Source: Balneola sp. (GTDB lineage Bacteria > Bacteroidota > Rhodothermia > Balneolales > Balneolaceae). Taken from it: a stretch of DNA of 64,000 nucleotides. Position numbers and translations under genes: made by a program. The stretch covers positions 248,001 through 312,000 of the forward strand of contig RHLJ01000005.1 in NCBI GenBank assembly GCA_003712055.1. Reading direction: 5' to 3'. This document shows positions 2,057 through 13,835 of this stretch, piece after piece. Position 1 is the stretch's first letter; each line of letters starts with the position of its first letter. The notes below the pieces were generated by a model. The model ran no database searches and was not told where the DNA came from. It saw nothing but the letters and a program-made list of their open reading frames with translations.

Positions 2057-3568
<1,512 letters not shown>

Positions 3569-3587: not shown

Positions 3588-3845
3588 ATGAGTACATTTA
3601 AAGCTCAAATCCTGACTCCTGAAGGCTCCCTATTTGAAGGAGATGTATCAGGTGTTCAAATGCCTGGAGTAATGGGAAGTTTTGAAGTAAAAGCTAATCA
3701 CGCTCCTATTGTTTCTGCATTGGATGAAGGAACCGTTCTTGTTCGTAAATCAGATGGTGATACTTCATACAATATCTCTGGTGGATTTGTGGAAGTAGCA
3801 AAGAACAAGCTTACCCTTCTTGCTGAATCGGTAGTAGAAGAATAG
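3588..3845 (+). CDS. atpC: F1 ATP synthase subunit epsilon, short form
   Basis: The 85-residue product matches the N-terminal beta-sandwich of the epsilon subunit: FKAQILTPEG at the start, then the GVMGSFEVKANHAPIVSAL block and the glycine-rich GGFVEV strand. The family usually has about 130-140 residues, with a C-terminal two-helix domain that inhibits ATP hydrolysis. Here the protein stops right after the sandwich (LLAESVVEE), so that inhibitory domain is absent. Short epsilon subunits are known in Bacteroidota and Chlorobi, so this is not a truncation artefact. It is co-transcribed with atpD and followed directly by a strong terminator. Confidence 0.95.
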   Translation: MSTFKAQILTPEGSLFEGDVSGVQMPGVMGSFEVKANHAPIVSALDEGTVLVRKSDGDTSYNISGGFVEVAKNKLTLLAESVVEE

Positions 3846-3872
3846 CACTCCGTACTTTTCTGATAGATTTTT

Positions 3873-3901
3873 AAAGCCCCAGCATTGTTGGGGCTTTTTT
3901 T
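3873..3901 (+). terminator. Rho-independent terminator of atpDC
   Basis: Nine-base-pair stem AAAGCCCCA / TGGGGCTTT with a seven-base loop, running into a T tract, 28 bp after the atpC stop. Because the left arm begins with A residues it may also act for the convergent gene ending at 3917. Confidence 0.9.
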
Positions 3902-3916
3902 GTGGAGATAGGTTTG

Positions 3917-4561
3917 CTATTCTATCTCAAGGGCAGCTGTGTTTTTTCTTATTATGAACAATGAAATAAACAATCCAATAACCGTCAAAAATAATCCTAC
4001 AAACAGGTCTAAATTGACAAGATGAATATTAGAGCTTACTGGAATAGCGATGGTCTTTTCCATAGCTGCTACTTTACTCTCATGAAATTTTTGAAAAACA
4101 GGGTCTGAAGACATCTCTATCATTACTCTCCGGCTTTTGTATCTCACCATTGCGACTGAAGTCCATTCTTCTGCGTTTTCAAGTCCCCATACTTCAGGGG
4201 AATTTATTAGTGATGTTCCAATAAATATTGGATAACTACCTCTTTTAATTAAATAAGATGTTACAAAACTAGAATAATCTTCGAGAGCTTCTTCGGAAGA
4301 ATTGAAAGTTTTTCCATTCACTGCGTTGGGAGTATCACGTAGTTTAATAGCATTAACCATAATTACAGGTTTTCCGTCATCTTCCTTCAAAAATGAAAGC
4401 ATCTCTTCCCAAGCATCTTCCGGATAATCATCTTTTGAGACTTCAGCGTATTTTTCTATTTCTTGTTCTGTTAATGGGCTTGTGAATAACCCATTCCATG
4501 CTAGAAACAGAACATAAATTAAAACTGTACAGAGCCACACAAGCACTAATTTGGTTTTCAT
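3917..4561 (-). CDS. Membrane-anchored DUF1330-like protein
   Basis: A 214-residue protein with one N-terminal helix (residues ~5-25) and one C-terminal helix (~183-205), leaving a soluble domain outside or between them. The middle part (VIMVNAIKLRD, then FIGTSLINSPEVWG, VRYKSRR, and the end HESKVAAMEKTIAIPV) follows the pattern of DUF1330, a ferredoxin-like dimeric alpha/beta-barrel family of unknown chemistry. The upstream 143 bp is a near copy of the region upstream of the dehalogenase-like gene at 5120-6271, which suggests shared regulation. It converges on atpDC. Function is not known; the domain assignment is by pattern only. Confidence 0.7.
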   Translation of the reverse strand: MKTKLVLVWLCTVLIYVLFLAWNGLFTSPLTEQEIEKYAEVSKDDYPEDAWEEMLSFLKEDDGKPVIMVNAIKLRDTPNAVNGKTFNSSEEALEDYSSFVTSYLIKRGSYPIFIGTSLINSPEVWGLENAEEWTSVAMVRYKSRRVMIEMSSDPVFQKFHESKVAAMEKTIAIPVSSNIHLVNLDLFVGLFLTVIGLFISLFIIRKNTAALEIE

Positions 4562-4574
4562 ATCATTTATTTTG

Positions 4575-4717
4575 TTGGTTTGAAATTCAACACAAATGAA
4601 CGATGATCTCGGGTGATTTTATTCTAGAAATAAAGCGAATTGAACAAATTGGAAGGTTAATTGAACTTTATTGAGAAATTGATACTGGCTTTTAATCTAT
4701 TACTCTGAACCGCTTGC
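4575..4717. repeat. Promoter-region repeat, copy A
   Basis: About 143 bp upstream of the DUF1330-like gene that aligns with 6275-6420 upstream of the dehalogenase-like gene, in the same orientation, at roughly 75-80% identity by eye. Shared blocks include TTTGAAATTCAA, CTAGAAATAAAG and GAATTGAACAAATTGGAAGG. Within it AATTGAAC occurs twice, at 4638-4645 and 4659-4666. Confidence 0.85.
4638..4666. promoter_or_regulatory. Candidate operator: two AATTGAAC half-sites 21 bp apart
   Basis: AATTGAAC at 4638-4645 and again at 4659-4666, a spacing of exactly two helical turns. The same pair with the same spacing occurs at 6338-6366, where the surrounding bases have diverged. Direct half-sites about 21 bp apart are typical of AraC-family operators; the regulator itself is not in this window, so the assignment is inference. 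Confidence 0.4.
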
Positions 4718-4730
4718 ACTAGCTAGGAAT

Positions 4731-4822
4731 ATTCGGAGATGTAAATGAAGAAAAGAGGTAATCGATACGATTTTTCAAAGAGCGAAAATAAATCAAAGGA
4801 ACCTGTAGCAACTAAATAGTAC
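4731..4822 (+). pseudogene. Decayed 3' end of a cupin/JmjC-like gene (copy of 10021-10108)
   Basis: The bases from TTCGGAGATGTAAA to TAGTAC align along their length with the last ~90 bp of the cupin-like gene at 8918-10108. Translated, the remnant reads GDVNEEKR, a stop, then after a frameshift VIDTIF, against GDVKAKKE and AIDTIF in the intact gene. Only the 3' end is present. It is followed by the decayed end of a PBP gene, in the same relative arrangement as the intact cupin and PBP genes. Confidence 0.75.
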
Positions 4823-4858
4823 ATAGAGTTGGTAATTATGCAGGTAAAGAGGTAGTTA

Positions 4859-4999
4859 CTACCACTCGTTTCTTCCACGGTTACTGTCTTTTAATAACTA
4901 ATTTTGAGTTTCTTCATCATCCTCGGGATTAAAAATCTCGGATGGTTCGAAAGCATCATATTCCCAATGTGTATCTTTATCAGTAGTTACATAGGTAAT
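4859..4999 (-). pseudogene. Decayed 3' end of a PBP1A gene (copy of 10720-10860)
   Basis: Read on the minus strand, 46 codons and a stop match the last 47 codons of the PBP1A gene at 10720-13059. About 32 of 46 residues agree, including ITYVT, YDAFEP, EETQN and NRGR, and both copies end in W-stop. A glutamate codon has become TAG after EETQN. No upstream part of the PBP gene precedes it: the similarity ends at 4999 where a terminator begins. The methyltransferase gene that separates cupin and PBP in the intact locus is missing here. Confidence 0.85.
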
Positions 5000-5001
5000 A
5001 A

Positions 5002-5034
5002 AAAAAACCTCGCAGGTATGATGCGAGGTTTTTT
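5002..5034 (-). terminator. Terminator downstream of the dehalogenase-like gene
   Basis: Thirteen-base-pair stem AAAAAACCTCGCA / TGCGAGGTTTTTT with a seven-base loop. It lies 85 bp after the stop of the minus-strand gene at 5120-6271. The A and T flanks would let it work in both directions. Confidence 0.85.
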
Positions 5035-5119
5035 ATACTCTGAATAGGTTTTGAATCAAATGAAGTAGATTCTTGTCATCCTTCGTTGTGATGATTTTTG
5101 TTGAAATTTTACGAGTACA

Positions 5120-6271
5120 CTACCAATCAGTAGAATAGAAATCAACAAGTCGGCGGGCGATCTCTTCGCCTTGATCACTTTGCAGGAAATGTCCAGCTTC
5201 TTCAAGTCTTACATGTGGTTTTCCTTCTGCTCCCGGTACGTTTTCAACAAAAATCTCTTGTGCTTCGCATGTCCCTAGCGAACCATGATCATTATTACCC
5301 CATATAGTTAAAAATGGTTTTGTATAAGAGGTAAGACCCATCCAAGCTTCTTCATTTTGACCGGATACTTCATTGACTAAGGCAGGGAATGTACGAGTAC
5401 CCGCCATATATTCTCTACTAGGAAAAGGTGCATCATAGGCTGCTTCTACTTCTTCCGAGAGGTCGTACCAGGTTAGTGCTTCAACCACTTCAGATGCGAC
5501 GTAAGAGGCTCCTTTCATGGAATAGAGCGCCCATGCATCAAAATCAAAAATTGCTCCTGGAAGTAGGTCGCACCCATCGTAGAAAGGTTCTTGTTGCTCG
5601 GGTATACTGGTAAAAGGTGATTCCATCTCTAGAATCTCATTTGGATTCTGAATGGGTGTCATTGGAAAGACCCCAGCAGGAATAACTGGTAATGCACCAT
5701 TTCCTACACTTATTGTAGCAAATAATTCAGGGTTAAGTCCGGCCACTCTTAAGCCAATCAAGCTCCCCCAATCTTGCACGAACAAATTAATATCGCTCAA
5801 TTCCAATTGCTGTATAAATCGCTCAAGTCGGTCACTGTGTCCCAAATAACTATAATCAAAGATATCAACCGGTTTGTCAGAGCGTCCCATTCCTAAATGG
5901 TCCATTGCAATAACTCTATATCCCGAATCCGCCAATACGGGAATCATGTATCGATATAAATAAGACCAGCTGGGTTGACCATGAATCAGCAGTACCACTT
6001 CACCATCCGCTGGCCCAGCTTCTGCGTACGCCTGTCGCAATTCGTCTATTTCAACATATTGATAGGCATAAGGCCAATCGGGTAGATCTTGAAAATTCTC
6101 CTCTGGAGTTCTTACGAATTGTATTCCTCTAGAAGTAACAAGAGTATCTATAAGGCTATCTACGGGATCAGCGCTATCCACCAGCATGTTACCATCATCA
6201 CTACAAGCAGATAACAAAAAGAAGGAAAGGATTAACATTGTTGAAGGAAATCGAAAAATCATTGTATTCAT
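5120..6271 (-). CDS. Haloalkane dehalogenase-like alpha/beta hydrolase, lipoprotein
   Basis: A 383-residue protein with a lipoprotein signal (hydrophobic stretch then LLSAC), so it is probably anchored on the periplasmic side of a membrane. The fold is the haloalkane dehalogenase type of alpha/beta hydrolase: HGQPSWSYLYR forms the oxyanion region, VQDWGS carries the nucleophile Asp167 with the adjacent Trp that binds halide in this family, WGNNDHG holds a candidate acid, and AGHFLQ the catalytic His361. Family members hydrolyse carbon-halogen bonds, or sometimes other esters or epoxides. Lipid-anchored members are less usual than cytoplasmic ones. Its upstream region is shared with the DUF1330-like gene, hinting at co-regulation. 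The actual substrate is unknown. Confidence 0.88.
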   Translation of the reverse strand: MNTMIFRFPSTMLILSFFLLSACSDDGNMLVDSADPVDSLIDTLVTSRGIQFVRTPEENFQDLPDWPYAYQYVEIDELRQAYAEAGPADGEVVLLIHGQPSWSYLYRYMIPVLADSGYRVIAMDHLGMGRSDKPVDIFDYSYLGHSDRLERFIQQLELSDINLFVQDWGSLIGLRVAGLNPELFATISVGNGALPVIPAGVFPMTPIQNPNEILEMESPFTSIPEQQEPFYDGCDLLPGAIFDFDAWALYSMKGASYVASEVVEALTWYDLSEEVEAAYDAPFPSREYMAGTRTFPALVNEVSGQNEEAWMGLTSYTKPFLTIWGNNDHGSLGTCEAQEIFVENVPGAEGKPHVRLEEAGHFLQSDQGEEIARRLVDFYSTDW

Positions 6272-6274
6272 TTT

Positions 6275-6420
6275 TTGGTTTGAAATTCAAAACAAATGAA
6301 CAATGATTTCGACTGATTTGAAGCTAGAAATAAAGTGAATTGAACAAATTGGAAGGCGAATTGAACATTCGATTCAGAAATTCCTACGGGCTTTTGATTT
6401 ATTGCTGTGAACCGTTTACA
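6275..6420. repeat. Promoter-region repeat, copy B
   Basis: Direct repeat of 4575-4717, placed just upstream of the dehalogenase-like gene. Similarity ends near GTGAACCGTTTACA; the flanking DNA then differs between the copies. The AATTGAAC pair at 6338-6345 and 6359-6366 is kept with the same 21-bp spacing. Confidence 0.85.
6338..6366. promoter_or_regulatory. Candidate operator, second copy of the AATTGAAC pair
   Basis: Two AATTGAAC direct half-sites with starts 21 bp apart, about 67-95 bp before the start codon of the dehalogenase-like gene; the equivalent pair lies about 77-105 bp before the DUF1330-like gene. Conservation of both sites and spacing amid diverged bases supports a functional role. 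Confidence 0.4.
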
Positions 6421-6463
6421 TAGAACCGTAGCAAAATTAGGCTCCAAGCTAGTTTATATCAGC

Positions 6464-8719
6464 TTACTCTATTTTTATAGTTACTTTATTTGTAGTAATA
6501 GAGTTACTTCCTACATAGATATCTATCTCACCGGGCTCCACAGCAAATACTCCTTCGTTGTCATAGTATTTGAAATCGTCATAGTTCATGGTGAATACTA
6601 CCGTTCTTTCTTCACCGGGAGACAAATTTATCTTTTCAAAACGTTTAAGTTGACGAACAGGTCGGGTAATTCTTCCAACCTTATCCCGGATATACAGCTG
6701 AACTACTTCGGATGTGGTCCGATCTCCGCTATTAGAAACCTGTATTTCTACAGTAATGTTTTCACCGTCTCCCAGTCTAGAATTGGATATGCTTATCTCT
6801 CCATATTCAACTTCACTGTATGAAAGTCCATAGCCGAATGGGAAGAGGGGAGTGAAGCCCAGATCCAGGTAATGGGATTCATTTCCAAGACTACTCTGCC
6901 AGGCACCTACAGGGATATCATCTATGCCTACGAAAGAATCAGGGTTTGCAGGTCGTCCGGTATTTTTATGATTATAGAAGTAGGGCAGTTGTCCGGCTGC
7001 TTTTGGCCAGCTAACTGGTAACCTACCAGAAGGTTCTGAAATACCTAATAACATCTCTTCCAGGGCAGGGCCTCCCATAGTGCCGGGGTGCCACATCATA
7101 AGTACGGCATCTAAATCGGATATATATTCGGTAATGTTAATGGGTCTTCCAGCCATCAATACCAAGACTACCGGTTTATCCAGTTTTGTCAGTTCCGTCA
7201 ATAATTCCTCTTGAGCTCCTGGCAATTTAATATTTGCTCGTGAGTGTGCTTCTCCGGAAAGAATGGCTTCTTCACCCCCTATGAATACAATAACATCTAC
7301 ATCTTGGGCGGCATCCAACACTGCCTGGAAATTACTCTGATCTTTATCTCGGCTAAAGGACAGGCCTTCAACAAAAACAGCATTTTCCATCGCTTCTCTG
7401 GGAGTAATAGAAGGATCGCCTTCCCCGTCAAATGTCCAGGTACCCAGTTGCTCTCTTCCTTTGTCAGCTAATGGTCCGGTTAGTAGAATTTTTTGATCTC
7501 GTTTTAGAGGAAGTACGTTCTCATTTTTTAGAAGGACACTACTTTCGACTGCCGCTTCTTTGGCCTTTTCGAGGTGTTCATCTGCGTAAAATTCTCCGGG
7601 ATGGTTTTGGGGGATGAAGGGCTCAGCAAATAAATTGAGTCTGAATTTGATCCTAAGAATATTGCTTACATAAAAATCTAACTGAGATTCTGGCACCTTT
7701 CCTTCCTTTACTAATTCTACCAAGAACTCTTCGTAAGCGGTCGAGGTCATCTCCATATCCAAACCAGCGTTAGCAGCTAATTCAGCTGCATGTTCATAGT
7801 CTTCCGCAAAACCATGAGCAATCATTTCGATCACAGAATTCCAGTCAGAGACTACAAATCCATCAAAGCCAAATTCTCCCCTCAGAATGTCCATAAGTAT
7901 TTTCTTATTTCCAGTTGCAGGGACTCCGTTTACTTCATTAAAAGAGGACATCAAAGTTGCTACATCTTCCGCAATAGCTTCTTCAAAAGGAGGAAGGAAA
8001 AGATTATAAAGTTGTTCATCGCTTACTATTGCAGTGTTATAGTCTCTACCCCCAATAGCCGCACCATAAGCAATGAAATGTTTAGCAGTAGCTGCCATTC
8101 GGGTAGGATCTGAAAGGTCTTCTCCCTGGAAACCACGCACATAGGCTCCAGCCAGTTGACCAGCTAAATAAGGATCTTCCCCAGGCGATTCAGCTATTCG
8201 CCCCCAGCGGCTGTCTTGTGTAATATCCAGCATGGGAGCAAAAGTCCATCTAATACCTACTGAACTAGCTTCTAGTGCAGCTATCCGGCTTCCTTCTTCA
8301 ACCATATCGGGGTTCCAGCTTGCAGCCTGACCTAATGGAATGGGAAATATGGTTTTAAATCCATGAATGACATCTCTAGCGAAAAGAAGTGGAATGCCAT
8401 GCTTGCTTTCTTTAACTGCTACTTCCTGCAGTTTCCTCACATGAGAGGTATCCATTACATTCAAAAAAGCTCCGATTTCTCCGTTTCTTACACTATTCAG
8501 TAATTCTTCCGGCAGAGCTCCTCTTTCTCTGCTACTCCTTCCCCTTAACGCTAATTGACCAACTTTTTCTTCAATCGTCATCTTGTCTACGATCGATTCT
8601 ATTAGTGTATCCAGATCATAATAAGCGGTTTGAGCAATTACAGATTCTGGAGTTAAAAAGAGAGAGAGAAGTAATATACAGGGTAGAGGTTTAAAAAAGA
8701 TTTTTTTCATAGGTCTCAT
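6464..8719 (-). CDS. bglX: Periplasmic beta-glucosidase, glycoside hydrolase family 3
   Basis: A 751-residue exported enzyme with a signal peptide ending near VIAQ (residue ~30). The N-terminal GH3 barrel is complete: MTIEEKVGQL, PGEDPYLA, ATAKHFIAYGA with the substrate-contacting Lys-His, and VVSDWNSV with the nucleophile Asp292. The C-terminal sandwich domain and fibronectin III-like domain follow, including FGYGLSY and a long beta-rich end. Length and order match BglX, which releases glucose from beta-linked oligosaccharides in the periplasm. The alternative start MKK three codons downstream is equally plausible. It sits in an accessory block, reading away from the cupin-like gene, and no SusCD pair or sugar transporter is adjacent. 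Confidence 0.93.
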   Translation of the reverse strand: MRPMKKIFFKPLPCILLLSLFLTPESVIAQTAYYDLDTLIESIVDKMTIEEKVGQLALRGRSSRERGALPEELLNSVRNGEIGAFLNVMDTSHVRKLQEVAVKESKHGIPLLFARDVIHGFKTIFPIPLGQAASWNPDMVEEGSRIAALEASSVGIRWTFAPMLDITQDSRWGRIAESPGEDPYLAGQLAGAYVRGFQGEDLSDPTRMAATAKHFIAYGAAIGGRDYNTAIVSDEQLYNLFLPPFEEAIAEDVATLMSSFNEVNGVPATGNKKILMDILRGEFGFDGFVVSDWNSVIEMIAHGFAEDYEHAAELAANAGLDMEMTSTAYEEFLVELVKEGKVPESQLDFYVSNILRIKFRLNLFAEPFIPQNHPGEFYADEHLEKAKEAAVESSVLLKNENVLPLKRDQKILLTGPLADKGREQLGTWTFDGEGDPSITPREAMENAVFVEGLSFSRDKDQSNFQAVLDAAQDVDVIVFIGGEEAILSGEAHSRANIKLPGAQEELLTELTKLDKPVVLVLMAGRPINITEYISDLDAVLMMWHPGTMGGPALEEMLLGISEPSGRLPVSWPKAAGQLPYFYNHKNTGRPANPDSFVGIDDIPVGAWQSSLGNESHYLDLGFTPLFPFGYGLSYSEVEYGEISISNSRLGDGENITVEIQVSNSGDRTTSEVVQLYIRDKVGRITRPVRQLKRFEKINLSPGEERTVVFTMNYDDFKYYDNEGVFAVEPGEIDIYVGSNSITTNKVTIKIE

Positions 8720-8917
8720 GAGATTGTGGGGGTATCAGATCTGTGGTTAGTTGCTACAGACCAAAACGTTAGCCAGGCTTATAAAAGGGATTTTATAGAC
8801 TTTAATCAATTTAATTGAGGAAATATATCTTTTTATTTTGAATAAGATTATTGGACAGGAAACAGATTTTAAATATTATCAGATCGATTTTTGGGTATTA
8901 AGTAACGGGTATATTAA

Positions 8918-10108
8918 ATGGGTGTATTAGAAAGGGTAGAGAATTTCAATCCGGATGTTCCTAAGGCAGCGTTTAGACTTAAAGGTTTCATATGGTCAAT
9001 GTGGTTTATTCTTGACTATGCTTTTTCTTTGTCAAAACAGAAAAAGGAAGATGGAACACTTTATAAACGACATGAGAGCTCACGTTTATCAGGTAAAGTG
9101 CTCAGATTTCTACATAAAAGCCTAGTAAACCAACTTGTCAAAAATGCTATTGTCACATTTGATGGCACGATGCCCCTTCCTTCAATCGACGGCAAGTATA
9201 TAGACAGAGAATTCTTTAATCACTGGGGGAGAAAAATAAATATGCCTTTGGTGTTAAAGGGGTACATAAAAGGTGAAGAGGTAATGGATGTTACCACTGT
9301 AGAGTCTCTTATAGAAGTGCATGGTCAAAAAGAGGTTAAATTTGTTGACCGAAATTTTGGGAAAAAGAAAAACAACAGGGTTGGGCAAAATGTGGAGCTT
9401 TTAACTTCAACCCTGGAAGAATATCTAACAAAGGAAGAGTATAGAGATTGTTACATAAATAACTTTTACGGAATACTCGATGATGATGATTATCTGGAAA
9501 GGAGTAGAGGGAAAGACATCGACGAATTTCGAAATCAGATAAGCTCAATTAGCCAGTGGTTTATCTCCCGTAGAAAGAATAGTGGTTCTACACTTCATTG
9601 TGCGTTAGGTGATAACATGTTTTTGAATATTCATGGTAAAAAGGAATGGTTGTTTATTGATCCAACGTATTTACCGGTATTTAAGCCAGCATTAGCTAAA
9701 TATGGAACCTATACGGTATCTGAGCTTGAAGAAGAATTGAATATGGACGCCGATACTTACGAAGAACTTGTCAAAGACTTCCCATATTTGAAGCATATTC
9801 CATTCTACAGGTATGAACTAGAGCCGGGAGATGTACTCTATAATCCTTCAGCTTGGTTACATACGGTTAGGAACCATACCGATTATACCGTAGGGTGCGC
9901 GGTTCGGTATAACGTAATGCAATGGGACAATAACTCCATCACTTTGTCGATTTGTGGTTTATTGATAGCTGCATTAAAGAATCCCACAAAGTCTTTTTTG
10001 GCTCAATTTATTAAAACAACATCCGGAGATGTAAAAGCCAAAAAAGAAGCTATTGATACTATTTTTTCGAAGAACGAAAAAAAGACAAAGGAAAAAGTAA
10101 GCACCTAG
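8918..10108 (+). CDS. Cupin_8/JmjC-like protein with altered metal-binding triad
   Basis: A 396-residue protein whose C-terminal half has the JmjC/cupin_8 pattern: SGSTLHCALGDN, then NIHGKKEWLFIDP, then LEPGDVLYNPSAWLHTVRNH. In active Fe(II)/2-oxoglutarate hydroxylases of this type the first strand reads HxD and the last supplies the second His. Here the first motif is HCA, so the Asp ligand is replaced by Ala, while the second His (WLHTV) and the Asn of the first strand remain. The protein may therefore have lost hydroxylase activity, or use an open metal site. No signal peptide is seen. The last ~90 bp of this gene are present again as a decayed copy at 4731-4822. Confidence 0.72.
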   Translation: MGVLERVENFNPDVPKAAFRLKGFIWSMWFILDYAFSLSKQKKEDGTLYKRHESSRLSGKVLRFLHKSLVNQLVKNAIVTFDGTMPLPSIDGKYIDREFFNHWGRKINMPLVLKGYIKGEEVMDVTTVESLIEVHGQKEVKFVDRNFGKKKNNRVGQNVELLTSTLEEYLTKEEYRDCYINNFYGILDDDDYLERSRGKDIDEFRNQISSISQWFISRRKNSGSTLHCALGDNMFLNIHGKKEWLFIDPTYLPVFKPALAKYGTYTVSELEEELNMDADTYEELVKDFPYLKHIPFYRYELEPGDVLYNPSAWLHTVRNHTDYTVGCAVRYNVMQWDNNSITLSICGLLIAALKNPTKSFLAQFIKTTSGDVKAKKEAIDTIFSKNEKKTKEKVST

Positions 10109-10126
10109 TACCCGGCTAAAAATCGA

Positions 10127-10726
10127 TTACTTTTTTAAAGCTAATCGTGACCAGGAAACTTTTTTCTTATGCTTTAAGAGACTTGGTTGATTCTCAAGAT
10201 GAAGTACACACTTTAATCCTAAAGTACCCGCCATTTGGATAGTCTTTTTTCCATCAGTAGGAAATATATGGCTACCTGCGCCTGCAGGGCCATTTCTTAG
10301 AGAAAGAGCTAAGACACCATTTTTATTGAGCAGTATACTCACTTCTGAAAGTGCAAGTTCCTGTTCTTTAGGGGTCAGATGATGCCATACTCCTGAGGAT
10401 AAGATAAAGTCGAACTTAGAAGAACTCTTTTTCAGTCTTTCCAATTTCGGTAACGAATCGTCTATCCAAGTAATATTTGAAGATGGGTATAGGTTCATTC
10501 CTGATATTCTAAACTCTTCTAATGGTTCCAAGGCAATAACGGAATGTCCCATCTCCGAAAGCTCATGGGCATCTCGTCCTATTCCTGCTCCTAAATCCAA
10601 GATATTCGATCTTTTTTTTGGGATATAAGGAATGAAATCTTTGTGTAGTTCTGTAAAAGAAAGGTTGTGAGTGGCTTTGACAAATTCCCTGGTTACAGAA
10701 GCATAACCTTGTGTTCCTTTTACCAC
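10127..10726 (-). CDS. Class I SAM-dependent methyltransferase
   Basis: A 199-residue protein with the Rossmann-type methyltransferase signature: ILDLGAGIGRDAHELSEMG for motif I, the acidic residue at ALEP ending strand 2, DFILSSGVWHHL for motif IV, and LNKNGVLALSLRNG for motif VI. The substrate cannot be told from sequence. It starts with GTG at 10724-10726, overlapping the 3' end of the PBP1A gene by 7 bp, so translation is probably coupled to it. It is convergent with the cupin-like gene, with 18 bp between stops. In the decayed duplicate at 4731-4999 this gene is absent between the same two neighbours, so it was inserted or deleted after duplication. Confidence 0.85.
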   Translation of the reverse strand: MVKGTQGYASVTREFVKATHNLSFTELHKDFIPYIPKKRSNILDLGAGIGRDAHELSEMGHSVIALEPLEEFRISGMNLYPSSNITWIDDSLPKLERLKKSSSKFDFILSSGVWHHLTPKEQELALSEVSILLNKNGVLALSLRNGPAGAGSHIFPTDGKKTIQMAGTLGLKCVLHLENQPSLLKHKKKVSWSRLALKK

Positions 10727-13059
10727 CCAATCCTACCACGGTTATTATCTCTCAATAATTCATTTTGAGTTTCTTCTGGATCTTCTGGCATTACAAAGCC
10801 CGGAGGCGGTTCAAAAGCATCATAACCCCAATAGGCATCTTTATCGGCTGTTACATACGTAATAAATTCCCCAACAATTGGAAGGGCAGAGCGTGCTCCC
10901 TGTCCAATACTATTCGGGTTATCGGTTGGGAAGCGGATTCTTCGATCTTCGCCACCTACCCAGGCACCCATCACAATGTGAGGGGTCATTCCAACAAACC
11001 AGTTATCTGCCGAGTTTTGTGTGGTTCCGGTTTTACCTGCAATATCCTGGCGTACACCATATACATTCCTTAATCGTACTCCGGTACCATGGTATCCTTC
11101 TCCACCTCGTATAACACCACGCATCATATCTGTCATGATATAAGCTGTTTCTGGACTAATTACTTCCTGTCTGTATTCAGGATAATACTCAACTAAAATA
11201 TTTCCTTCTTTATCCTCAATCCGGGTAATGGCGATCGGATCTATGTGAACCCCAGAATTTGCGAAAGTAGTGTAGGCGCTTGTGATTTCCAATAAACTCA
11301 CCTCTGCAGTTCCTAAAGCAATGGAAGGGTAGGCCGGGGTATTGCTCATATCAATCCCCAAATTAGAGGCCATATCCTTAATTTTTCTAGCGGCTGGATC
11401 AAGTTCCCATAGCTTATTTGTACCCGGATATCCGGCAATTTCAGGGAGTAATCGCACCGTAATATTGTTTAGACTTCGTGCCAAAGCCTGACGAAGAGGT
11501 ACCATAATTGGTCCATCTGAAACGGTTTGATCTTTCGGAGCCCATACATTCCCTGACCGATCATAATACTTTGTAGGGTACTTCGAGAATTTATGATATG
11601 GCTTAAATCCGTTATCTATAGCAACCGAATACACAAAAGGTTTAAAAGTAGAACCTGCTTGTCGTCGCGATTGGTATACATGATCAAATTGAACATTTCC
11701 GTAGTTAGAGCCACCTACCCATGCCAATATATTTCCGTTTGAAGGTTCAATGGCAACGAAGCCAGCTTCTAAGCGGGTTCTGGATTTCATCACTGAATCC
11801 ACAAACATAGAGTCTGCTTTCAGGCTATCAAATACAACTCGTTCAATCTTAGTATCCCATTTTTGGAAGCCATTCTTGTACTCATCCGTATCTCTCAAAA
11901 AGCTATCTTTAAAACCCGGAAACTCTTCCCATAGCTTATCCATATAGATAGTACTTCTTCGGGTTGTCCATTCAGATTCAAAAATATTTTGAAGAGAATC
12001 CAATTTGGTGCGCATCGCCTTCTCAGCATAAGACTGGAGTTTAGAATCGATGGTGGTATAAATAACCAACCCATCAGTATAAAGATCATACCCATTCTCC
12101 TCAGCCCAACCAGAAACTTTTTGTCGAACATATTCTCCGAAATATCGACTTACCCGTCCTGCTTTTGAAGGTGGCTGATAGTCCAATTGAATAGGTGCAG
12201 CCTGGAGTTGTTCTTTCTCAACCTGGGAAATAAACCCTTGTTGATTCATCAAATACAGAACAATGTCTCGCCTTGATTTAGATCTGTCGGGAAATAGTCT
12301 TGGATTATAGCGGTAAATCGCATTAACAGAACCAACTAAAGTTGCTGCTTCAGAAAGAGTTAACTCGTGAGCAGATTTATTAAAATGGGTTCGTGAAGCG
12401 GCTTCAATACCAAAAGCACTATTGGGGTATTCAACCGTATTCAAGTACATCTCGATGATCTCTCGCTTAGTATAGTTACGCTCAATTTGAACAGCAGTGA
12501 TCATCTCCCGGAACTTCCTTGAGATCGAAAAAGCGAGACCAATTTCTTTATATAGGTTCCTAGCCAACTGTTGGCTAAGTGTAGAACCACCCTGTGGATC
12601 ACCTCTAAGCACGTGATAAGGGATTGCCAGTGTTCTTATCATATCCATTCCCCAGTGATCATAGAAGCGATGATCTTCTGTAGCAACTAATGCATCTATG
12701 GCATGAGGAGAGATTTGGTCGTAGCGTACCCAGGTTCGGTTTTGGGTGAAGTATTTATCCAGTACAACGCCATCTCTGCTTCTTACTTCAGTAGCTATAG
12801 CAGTTTCAGGATTTTCAAGCTGTGCAATAGAAGGAAGTCCCTGAAATAAAAAATATACATATCCACCTACTGCAATACCCCCAATTAAAAGAGTAAGTGC
12901 AAAAAAGCCTACTATCTTTTTTCCTATTCCATTTGATGGAGTTCCTTTTTTTAAAGGGGGAGTAGGAGCAGATTTCTTTTGAGCAAGAATTTCTTTTCGG
13001 TATTCCGGGTCATTAAAATACCGATGATGATCGATGGGATTGTTATCCGAATTGCTCAT
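10720..13059 (-). CDS. mrcA: Bifunctional penicillin-binding protein 1A (glycosyltransferase/transpeptidase)
   Basis: Class A PBP that polymerises and crosslinks peptidoglycan from the cytoplasmic membrane. After a cytoplasmic tail and one membrane helix (residues ~50-72) comes the GT51 domain: ATEDHRFYDHWG with catalytic Glu128 and GGSTLSQQLARNLY. The transpeptidase domain has AGSTFKPF with Ser470, SLNN and KTGTT. The length of 779 residues is normal. I chose the ATG at 13057-13059 because it overlaps the stop of the upstream lpxH-like gene as ATGA; a start 18 codons earlier would reach 54 bp into that gene. The 3' end also exists as a decayed copy at 4859-4999. Gene order suggests an operon with lpxH and the polyprenyl synthase. 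Confidence 0.95.
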   Translation of the reverse strand: MSNSDNNPIDHHRYFNDPEYRKEILAQKKSAPTPPLKKGTPSNGIGKKIVGFFALTLLIGGIAVGGYVYFLFQGLPSIAQLENPETAIATEVRSRDGVVLDKYFTQNRTWVRYDQISPHAIDALVATEDHRFYDHWGMDMIRTLAIPYHVLRGDPQGGSTLSQQLARNLYKEIGLAFSISRKFREMITAVQIERNYTKREIIEMYLNTVEYPNSAFGIEAASRTHFNKSAHELTLSEAATLVGSVNAIYRYNPRLFPDRSKSRRDIVLYLMNQQGFISQVEKEQLQAAPIQLDYQPPSKAGRVSRYFGEYVRQKVSGWAEENGYDLYTDGLVIYTTIDSKLQSYAEKAMRTKLDSLQNIFESEWTTRRSTIYMDKLWEEFPGFKDSFLRDTDEYKNGFQKWDTKIERVVFDSLKADSMFVDSVMKSRTRLEAGFVAIEPSNGNILAWVGGSNYGNVQFDHVYQSRRQAGSTFKPFVYSVAIDNGFKPYHKFSKYPTKYYDRSGNVWAPKDQTVSDGPIMVPLRQALARSLNNITVRLLPEIAGYPGTNKLWELDPAARKIKDMASNLGIDMSNTPAYPSIALGTAEVSLLEITSAYTTFANSGVHIDPIAITRIEDKEGNILVEYYPEYRQEVISPETAYIMTDMMRGVIRGGEGYHGTGVRLRNVYGVRQDIAGKTGTTQNSADNWFVGMTPHIVMGAWVGGEDRRIRFPTDNPNSIGQGARSALPIVGEFITYVTADKDAYWGYDAFEPPPGFVMPEDPEETQNELLRDNNRGRIGW

Positions 13060-13835
13060 GCTTCTATTGAATTTGAGAGAAAAGGTACGAATTCCTGAGT
13101 TTCTATGTGCCATTTAACGAGTTCAAATGCCCCATTCTTATATCGCACTAGTGTTCCATCAGAAAAAAACGGTCCGGAATTTATATAGCGTCCGCCGGAA
13201 AAAGTTTCCATTCTCGGAATATGATCATGACCGCATAATACGAGATCTATTTCTTTAGCATTTAGGATACTTTCTGCATGATTGTTCAATGGTACAGGAT
13301 TTCGATAATTTCTCTTTCTGGTTACGTTCGAAAAGATCTTCATAAAAGAAAGGCCAAGAGTTGGGGAGAAGACTTTTTGAAAGATTTTAGTAAAGGTTGG
13401 ATGCCTCAATACCTTGTGATAGAAAGGTCTGATAAAGTCATCCCTTTTTCCAAACTGACCATCTCCATGCATTAATAATACCTTTAATCCCTCAAGTTCT
13501 ATAACTCTGTAGTTTCGCTCTACATCAAACCCCCGGTCTTCGAAGTGTCCAAAGGTCCAGTTATCATGATTGCCAGTTATGAAGAGTGCTTTTGCAACCG
13601 ATCGATTATATTCTTCAAATTTATCCAGTACTTCTTTTCCAATGTTGGGTATATAATTTTGTTTTGGAAATTCCATCCAGTAATCGAATAGATCTCCTAA
13701 CACATACAATAAGGCTTCATGTTCAATAGCATAATCGATGAGAGTAAGTAAATTTCGTGCTAGTTCTTCTTCTTTGATTGGTGAGAAGGCTCCGATGTGA
13801 ACGTCAGAGATAAACAAATGCTCTCGTCCCACCAT
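13056..13835 (-). CDS. lpxH: LpxH-like UDP-2,3-diacylglucosamine diphosphatase
   Basis: A 259-residue calcineurin-like metallophosphoesterase. The metal-binding motifs occur in order: FISDVHIGAF, GDLFDYW, GNHDNW, MHGDGQFGKRDDF and CGHDHIPRME. The set and spacing match the LpxH family, which splits the pyrophosphate of UDP-2,3-diacylglucosamine in lipid A synthesis at the inner membrane surface. Bacteroidota-like members are often labelled LpxH-type phosphoesterases without proof. Its stop overlaps the PBP1A start as ATGA, and it follows the polyprenyl synthase with a 3-bp gap, so the three genes probably form one envelope-related operon. Confidence 0.85.
   Translation of the reverse strand: MVGREHLFISDVHIGAFSPIKEEELARNLLTLIDYAIEHEALLYVLGDLFDYWMEFPKQNYIPNIGKEVLDKFEEYNRSVAKALFITGNHDNWTFGHFEDRGFDVERNYRVIELEGLKVLLMHGDGQFGKRDDFIRPFYHKVLRHPTFTKIFQKVFSPTLGLSFMKIFSNVTRKRNYRNPVPLNNHAESILNAKEIDLVLCGHDHIPRMETFSGGRYINSGPFFSDGTLVRYKNGAFELVKWHIETQEFVPFLSNSIEA

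Follow-up and report, generated by a model that had tools for sequence, protein, structure and literature searches.

The window analysed here, a stretch of 64,000 nucleotides (nt) from Balneola sp. (assembly GCA_003712055.1, contig RHLJ01000005.1, positions 248,001 to 312,000), carries a small scar in the atpC/PBP1A gap, which separates two convergent core genes. This scar, at 4565–5002, appears to be one collapsed copy of a neighbouring block that runs from the promoter of DehH, a haloalkane-dehalogenase-family gene, to the tail of PBP1A, without the methyltransferase gene of the right block. The left copy measures about 0.44 kb (440 bases), against 4.6 kb for the right block at 6266–10866. 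We favour a partial tandem duplication within an acquired gene cluster between atpC and PBP1A, with subsequent deletions, and put the probability of this explanation at roughly 0.6.

Three co-linear pieces of a decayed copy

A blastn comparison of 3846–5119 with 5120–13100 returned three co-linear, same-strand matches and no others. Piece 1 (4565–4718, minus strand), now upstream of the gene S214, is 83% identical to 6266–6420, the region upstream of DehH (E = 2e-41), and a repeat search agrees. Piece 2 (4728–4801, plus strand) matches 10018–10093, the 3′ end of a cupin_8 gene, with 78% identity (E = 7e-10), and weaker similarity continues to about 4822. Piece 3 (4860–5002, minus strand) matches 10721–10866, the 3′ end of PBP1A, with 77% identity (E = 1e-26), and the stop position of the gene is kept at 4859–4861. 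An earlier note on this DNA had claimed that the 3′ ends of the cupin_8 and PBP1A genes recur at 4731–4999 in the same order and orientation, and had suggested an alignment as a check. In gapped local alignments with 500 dinucleotide-preserving shuffles, the cupin end scored 65 against a best shuffle of 31 and the PBP end 124 against 27, which places both far beyond shuffled sequence.

Both gene ends are decayed, as the same note had described. The cupin copy contains stop codons in all three frames. The translation of the PBP copy, ITYVTTDKDTHWEYDAFEPSEIFNPEDDEETQN*LLKDSNRGRNEW* (asterisks mark stops), has 33 of 48 residues in common with the PBP1A gene (the previous count was about 32 of 46), with an internal in-frame TAG at 4898–4900 and the terminal W-stop retained; relative to the gene it carries a 1-base and a 2-base deletion that jointly preserve the frame, a detail absent from the note. 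The absence of the methyltransferase from this junction was likewise borne out: the cupin and PBP stops of the left copy are separated by about 37 nt, in which no significant match to that gene was detected.

Piece 1, the longest of the three, had been missed before, and it strengthens the reading of the scar as a duplicated segment. The three pieces have the same order and strand as in 6266–10866, which points to 4565–5002 being one collapsed copy. The upstream region of DehH is partly conserved in other Bacteroidota: contigs of Flammeovirgaceae and Saprospiraceae (L077, L078, L080–L082) have parts of it in front of their own DehH genes, and on these grounds the region is native to DehH. As it also lies to the left of the cupin end, the DehH upstream region would have been copied, and not just two gene ends. 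The earlier description of the dehalogenase and the GH3-family gene as lying 'between the copies' is thus misleading; with the dehalogenase upstream region present in the left copy, both genes would belong to the duplicated unit rather than to an insert. The left copy shows a deletion of 3.6 kb, comprising GH3 and most of the cupin gene, with its ends within about 10 bp of each other. The idea that piece 1 is a repeat spread through the genome was rejected, since it has just two copies there.

A variable gap with acquired cargo

The atpC/PBP1A gap was compared in 11 relatives, two of the same genus and the rest of the same family, and the family sample comprised 92 genomes, that is, 91 besides this one. 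Convergent atpC and PBP1A are neighbours in the relatives too (atpC was not seen in G019 within the stretch fetched), and the cargo of the gap differs in nearly each of them. A gap of only about 140 nt is found in G006 and G012 (L036, L039). In G018 (L035, 10618–15285), the same gap holds two GmrSD-like genes and a gene for a tyrosine integrase, the end of which is just 5 nt away from the stop of PBP1A. This comparison, which the earlier note had called for, gave a uniform answer: none of the 11 relatives carries DehH, GH3, cupin or methyltransferase in the gap, and none has a PBP-tail remnant there. No comparable scar was found elsewhere among the 92 family genomes.

The genes of the cluster have no close relatives in the family. 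The cupin is present in this genome only, S214, DehH and the methyltransferase have merely remote homologues in the other 91 genomes, and the best GH3 homologue is 47% identical. This argues that the DehH–GH3–cupin cluster, with S214 beside DehH, is acquired cargo in a variable gap. Peptide patterns revealed no relative of the cupin in 84,980 species genomes; plasmids gave a single partial match (29%) and phages none, and these searches therefore identified no donor.

A different origin would follow if, as the earlier note had alternatively proposed, a site-specific element had integrated at the 3′ end of PBP1A and supplied a replacement end, the displaced end now being the fragment. The extreme 3′ end, a usual target of integrases, is common to fragment and gene, and the G018 integrase and GmrSD-like genes, so close to the PBP1A stop, are in line with such an event. 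However, none of the window's open reading frames (ORFs) between atpC and PBP1A encodes a recombinase, and the homology spans 146 bp at 77% identity, not a short identical att core; the cupin end and the region upstream of DehH are homologous as well. Moreover, a displaced PBP tail is found neither in G018 nor in the 10 other relatives. We consider this explanation very improbable and largely refuted.

Proposed course of duplication and collapse

Under the favoured tandem duplication, the starting state would have been an acquired set of DehH, GH3 and cupin genes, with S214 beside DehH, between convergent atpC and PBP1A. That DehH and S214 were originally neighbours is plausible, because an S214-like (DUF1330-like) module is fused C-terminally to a DehH-like protein in two distant genomes (L086, L089). 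A segment that begins just past DehH, on its 3′ side, and includes the final ~146 bases of PBP1A would then have been tandemly duplicated, probably in a single event. The right unit would have retained the working genes and the intact PBP1A, and the left unit, being redundant, would have collapsed by deletion. The left DehH would have been lost between its start codon and S214, and the left GH3 with all of the cupin gene except its end between ~4720 and ~4728; the remaining cupin and PBP1A ends would have eroded through point mutation and small deletions. The DehH-type promoter/operator region would still function on the left, now directly upstream of S214, and is apparently the sole part of the left copy still useful. 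The methyltransferase would have been gained later in the right unit. We somewhat favour this gain over a loss on the left because the absence coincides with both gene ends and leaves no detectable remnant.

As expected of a tandem duplication, the two copies lie in direct orientation and are co-linear over several separate segments, and the scar is nearer to the resident gene than to the orthologues of the relatives. Several observations weigh against this scheme. The left DehH is wholly missing, with no remnant. At the joint (5002/5003), the 117 nt at 5003–5119 match neither side nor anything else tested. The right DehH is without the C-terminal domain of its six nearest homologues, and a simple duplication that broke beyond DehH gives no reason for this absence. 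Copies this divergent would also be expected if a homologous segment had been imported from an unsampled sister species, and no relative at an intermediate stage was found.

The DehH ending deserves some detail. The six nearest homologues extend 225–230 residues past the end of the window DehH; in the single homologue scanned (L077), this C-terminal domain has no Pfam match. Single-domain forms exist among more distant homologues. The window DehH has neither the 225–230 residue domain nor an S214-like module, and no relic of the domain was found around 3846–5130.

Age of the two copies

Identity of the PBP fragment is 77.8% with the resident tail and 70–71% with the same-genus relatives; resident tail and same-genus relatives share 78.2%, although here genes under constraint are compared. 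Identity at the codon position that varies most is 63% between fragment and resident and 48–50% between resident and genus relatives; codon-position labels were shifted in this analysis, and the most variable class alone was used. Fragment and resident have 13 states in common that are absent from both same-genus relatives, which dates the separation of the copies to after the split from these relatives. Where fragment and resident differ, the genus relatives side with the resident at 18 sites and with the fragment at 8. The fragment has thus evolved faster, as expected of a decaying copy.

The divergence of the copies also bears on the main rival, which would leave much the same picture. Here, the two blocks would not stem from duplication on one chromosome: a diverged sister lineage carrying the same acquired cluster would have donated a homologous segment, with unequal crossing over at PBP1A, and the ends of the older resident cluster would have remained to the left of it. 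An identity of 77–83% between the copies is what one expects between two species, and the methyltransferase and the ending of DehH deviate from what a clean duplication predicts. Against this, the identity of PBP1A to G001 and G002 does not change abruptly at the tail, as it would at the edge of an imported tract, the search found no sister lineage with the cluster, and two lineages must both have had the same rare cluster. We consider such an import rather unlikely.

A putative LytTR-type operator shared by both copies

Returning to the collapsed left copy, its best-conserved part is a putative operator before S214. Of the 43 positions of the piece-1 stretch GTTCAATTAACCTTCCAATTTGTTCAATTCGCTTTATTTCTAG, 3 differ from the DehH copy; in the scars of the cupin and PBP genes the difference amounts to 23% (binomial P 0.006, for a stretch chosen post hoc). 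The site (4633–4666, minus strand) contains two GTTCAATT repeats 21 nt apart and has its right counterpart at 6333–6366, also on the minus strand. LytTR regulators bind repeats of 9–11 nt with a separation of 11–13 nt (PMC4847170), and the 10-nt direct repeats seen here, with an 11-nt spacer and a 21-nt pitch, fit this geometry.

Searching the whole genome for the operator pattern with up to two mismatches gave three matches, and a control pattern gave none. Two of these sites lie before S214 and before DehH; the third, on contig C3 (L132, ~3253–3286), is flanked on one side by a gene pair for a histidine kinase and a LytTR response regulator and on the other by a DUF2147 gene. The order kinase–regulator–operator–DUF2147 is also found in G067 (L149), which belongs to another genus. 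The C3 regulator shares 47% identity with a regulator whose gene lies immediately downstream of DehH in L080, and similar kinase/regulator pairs occur near DehH in L077, L079 and L082. Putative operator sites also occur near DehH of other Bacteroidota (L077, L080–L082). Across the family genomes, pattern matches at the same stringency are not far above the control rate, and hence only those next to the regulator are meaningful.

Could S214 and DehH, as genes of a single regulon, have independently obtained one and the same promoter region, with only the cupin and PBP ends duplicated? The occurrence of the operator at other presumed-regulon genes (the third genomic copy; L082, L084, L149) speaks for this. 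Yet the similarity covers about 155 bp, far past the operator, and the third genomic operator is without such extended similarity; piece 1 also stops no more than ~10 bp short of the cupin scar, in the order of the right block. We therefore regard a separate origin of piece 1 as improbable.

We predict a regulator–operator pairing that links DehH, the DUF2147 protein and S214; a search of the literature found nothing linking LytTR with haloalkane dehalogenase, and for LytTR together with DUF2147 it turned up a single transcriptome paper. It is tempting, if tentative, to suggest that the collapse of the tandem copy put S214 under a putative LytTR operator that also controls DehH and the distant DUF2147 gene. 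The scar would then have created a dispersed regulon, in which DehH would be a secreted dehalogenase-like enzyme and S214 its detached partner module. The predicted regulator–operator pair is a more useful by-product of this work than the scar itself, and it is directly testable.

Genes and signals of the gap

The left core-gene boundary is atpC (ATP synthase epsilon; 3588–3845, plus strand), which lies beside atpD in the stretches of 10 of the 11 relatives, with 62–93% identity. A terminator scan places a terminator after it, at 3873–3897. S214 (3917–4561, minus strand) encodes a protein of 214 amino acids with a weakly DUF1330-like central region; on its own it matches no Pfam family. Where the left copy meets the right unit (5003–5119, no strand assigned), an inverted repeat at ~5007–5032 (CCTCGCA...TGCGAGG) with A/T runs on both sides could terminate DehH transcription.

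DehH (5120–6271, minus strand) is predicted to be a lipoprotein-like alpha/beta hydrolase of 383 amino acids, and its upstream region at 6266–6420, on the same strand, is the right counterpart of piece 1. It is followed by the GH3-family glycosidase-like gene (6464–8719, minus strand), absent from the left copy, the cupin_8/JmjC-like gene (8918–10108, plus strand) and the class I S-adenosylmethionine (SAM) methyltransferase-like gene (10127–10726, minus strand), present in the right copy only. PBP1A (10720–13059, minus strand; longest ORF start at 13113) forms the right core-gene boundary. At 10720–10726, its stop codon and the GTG start of the methyltransferase overlap (GTGGTAA), which is why the methyltransferase start may derive from PBP1A sequence.

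Comparison with known systems

The atpC/PBP1A gap resembles the hotspots of horizontal transfer without mobile elements described by Oliveira et al. (2017; PMC5635113). Fixed core neighbours flank differing cargo across the 11 relatives, and in the window the gap contains no recognisable mobile-element genes. Those hotspots were described within species, whereas our comparison spans species and genera of one family. Similar to integrative elements that rebuild the 3′ end of their target gene, the locus has an intact gene with a displaced 3′ end close by, but here there is no integrase and no short identical core, and the homology reaches two further loci. The putative operator is like LytTR-type operators in its repeat geometry, and one genomic copy adjoins a LytTR response regulator gene; its sequence, GTTCAATTC, is its own, and LytTR sites are without a common consensus (PMC4847170).

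The closest likeness is to decayed partial tandem (segmental) duplications, in which one of two co-linear copies is intact and the other eroded by deletion, frameshift and stop codons. As a phenomenon and in its mechanism, the scar is thus ordinary, and its preservation is good enough to suggest an order of events. It suggests how this gap may turn over in the family, through acquisition, duplication, collapse and the rescue of one gene via a duplicated promoter. What sets it apart from other decayed tandem duplications is the extreme collapse, from 4.6 to 0.44 kb, and a promoter that was apparently kept and reused by the neighbouring gene.
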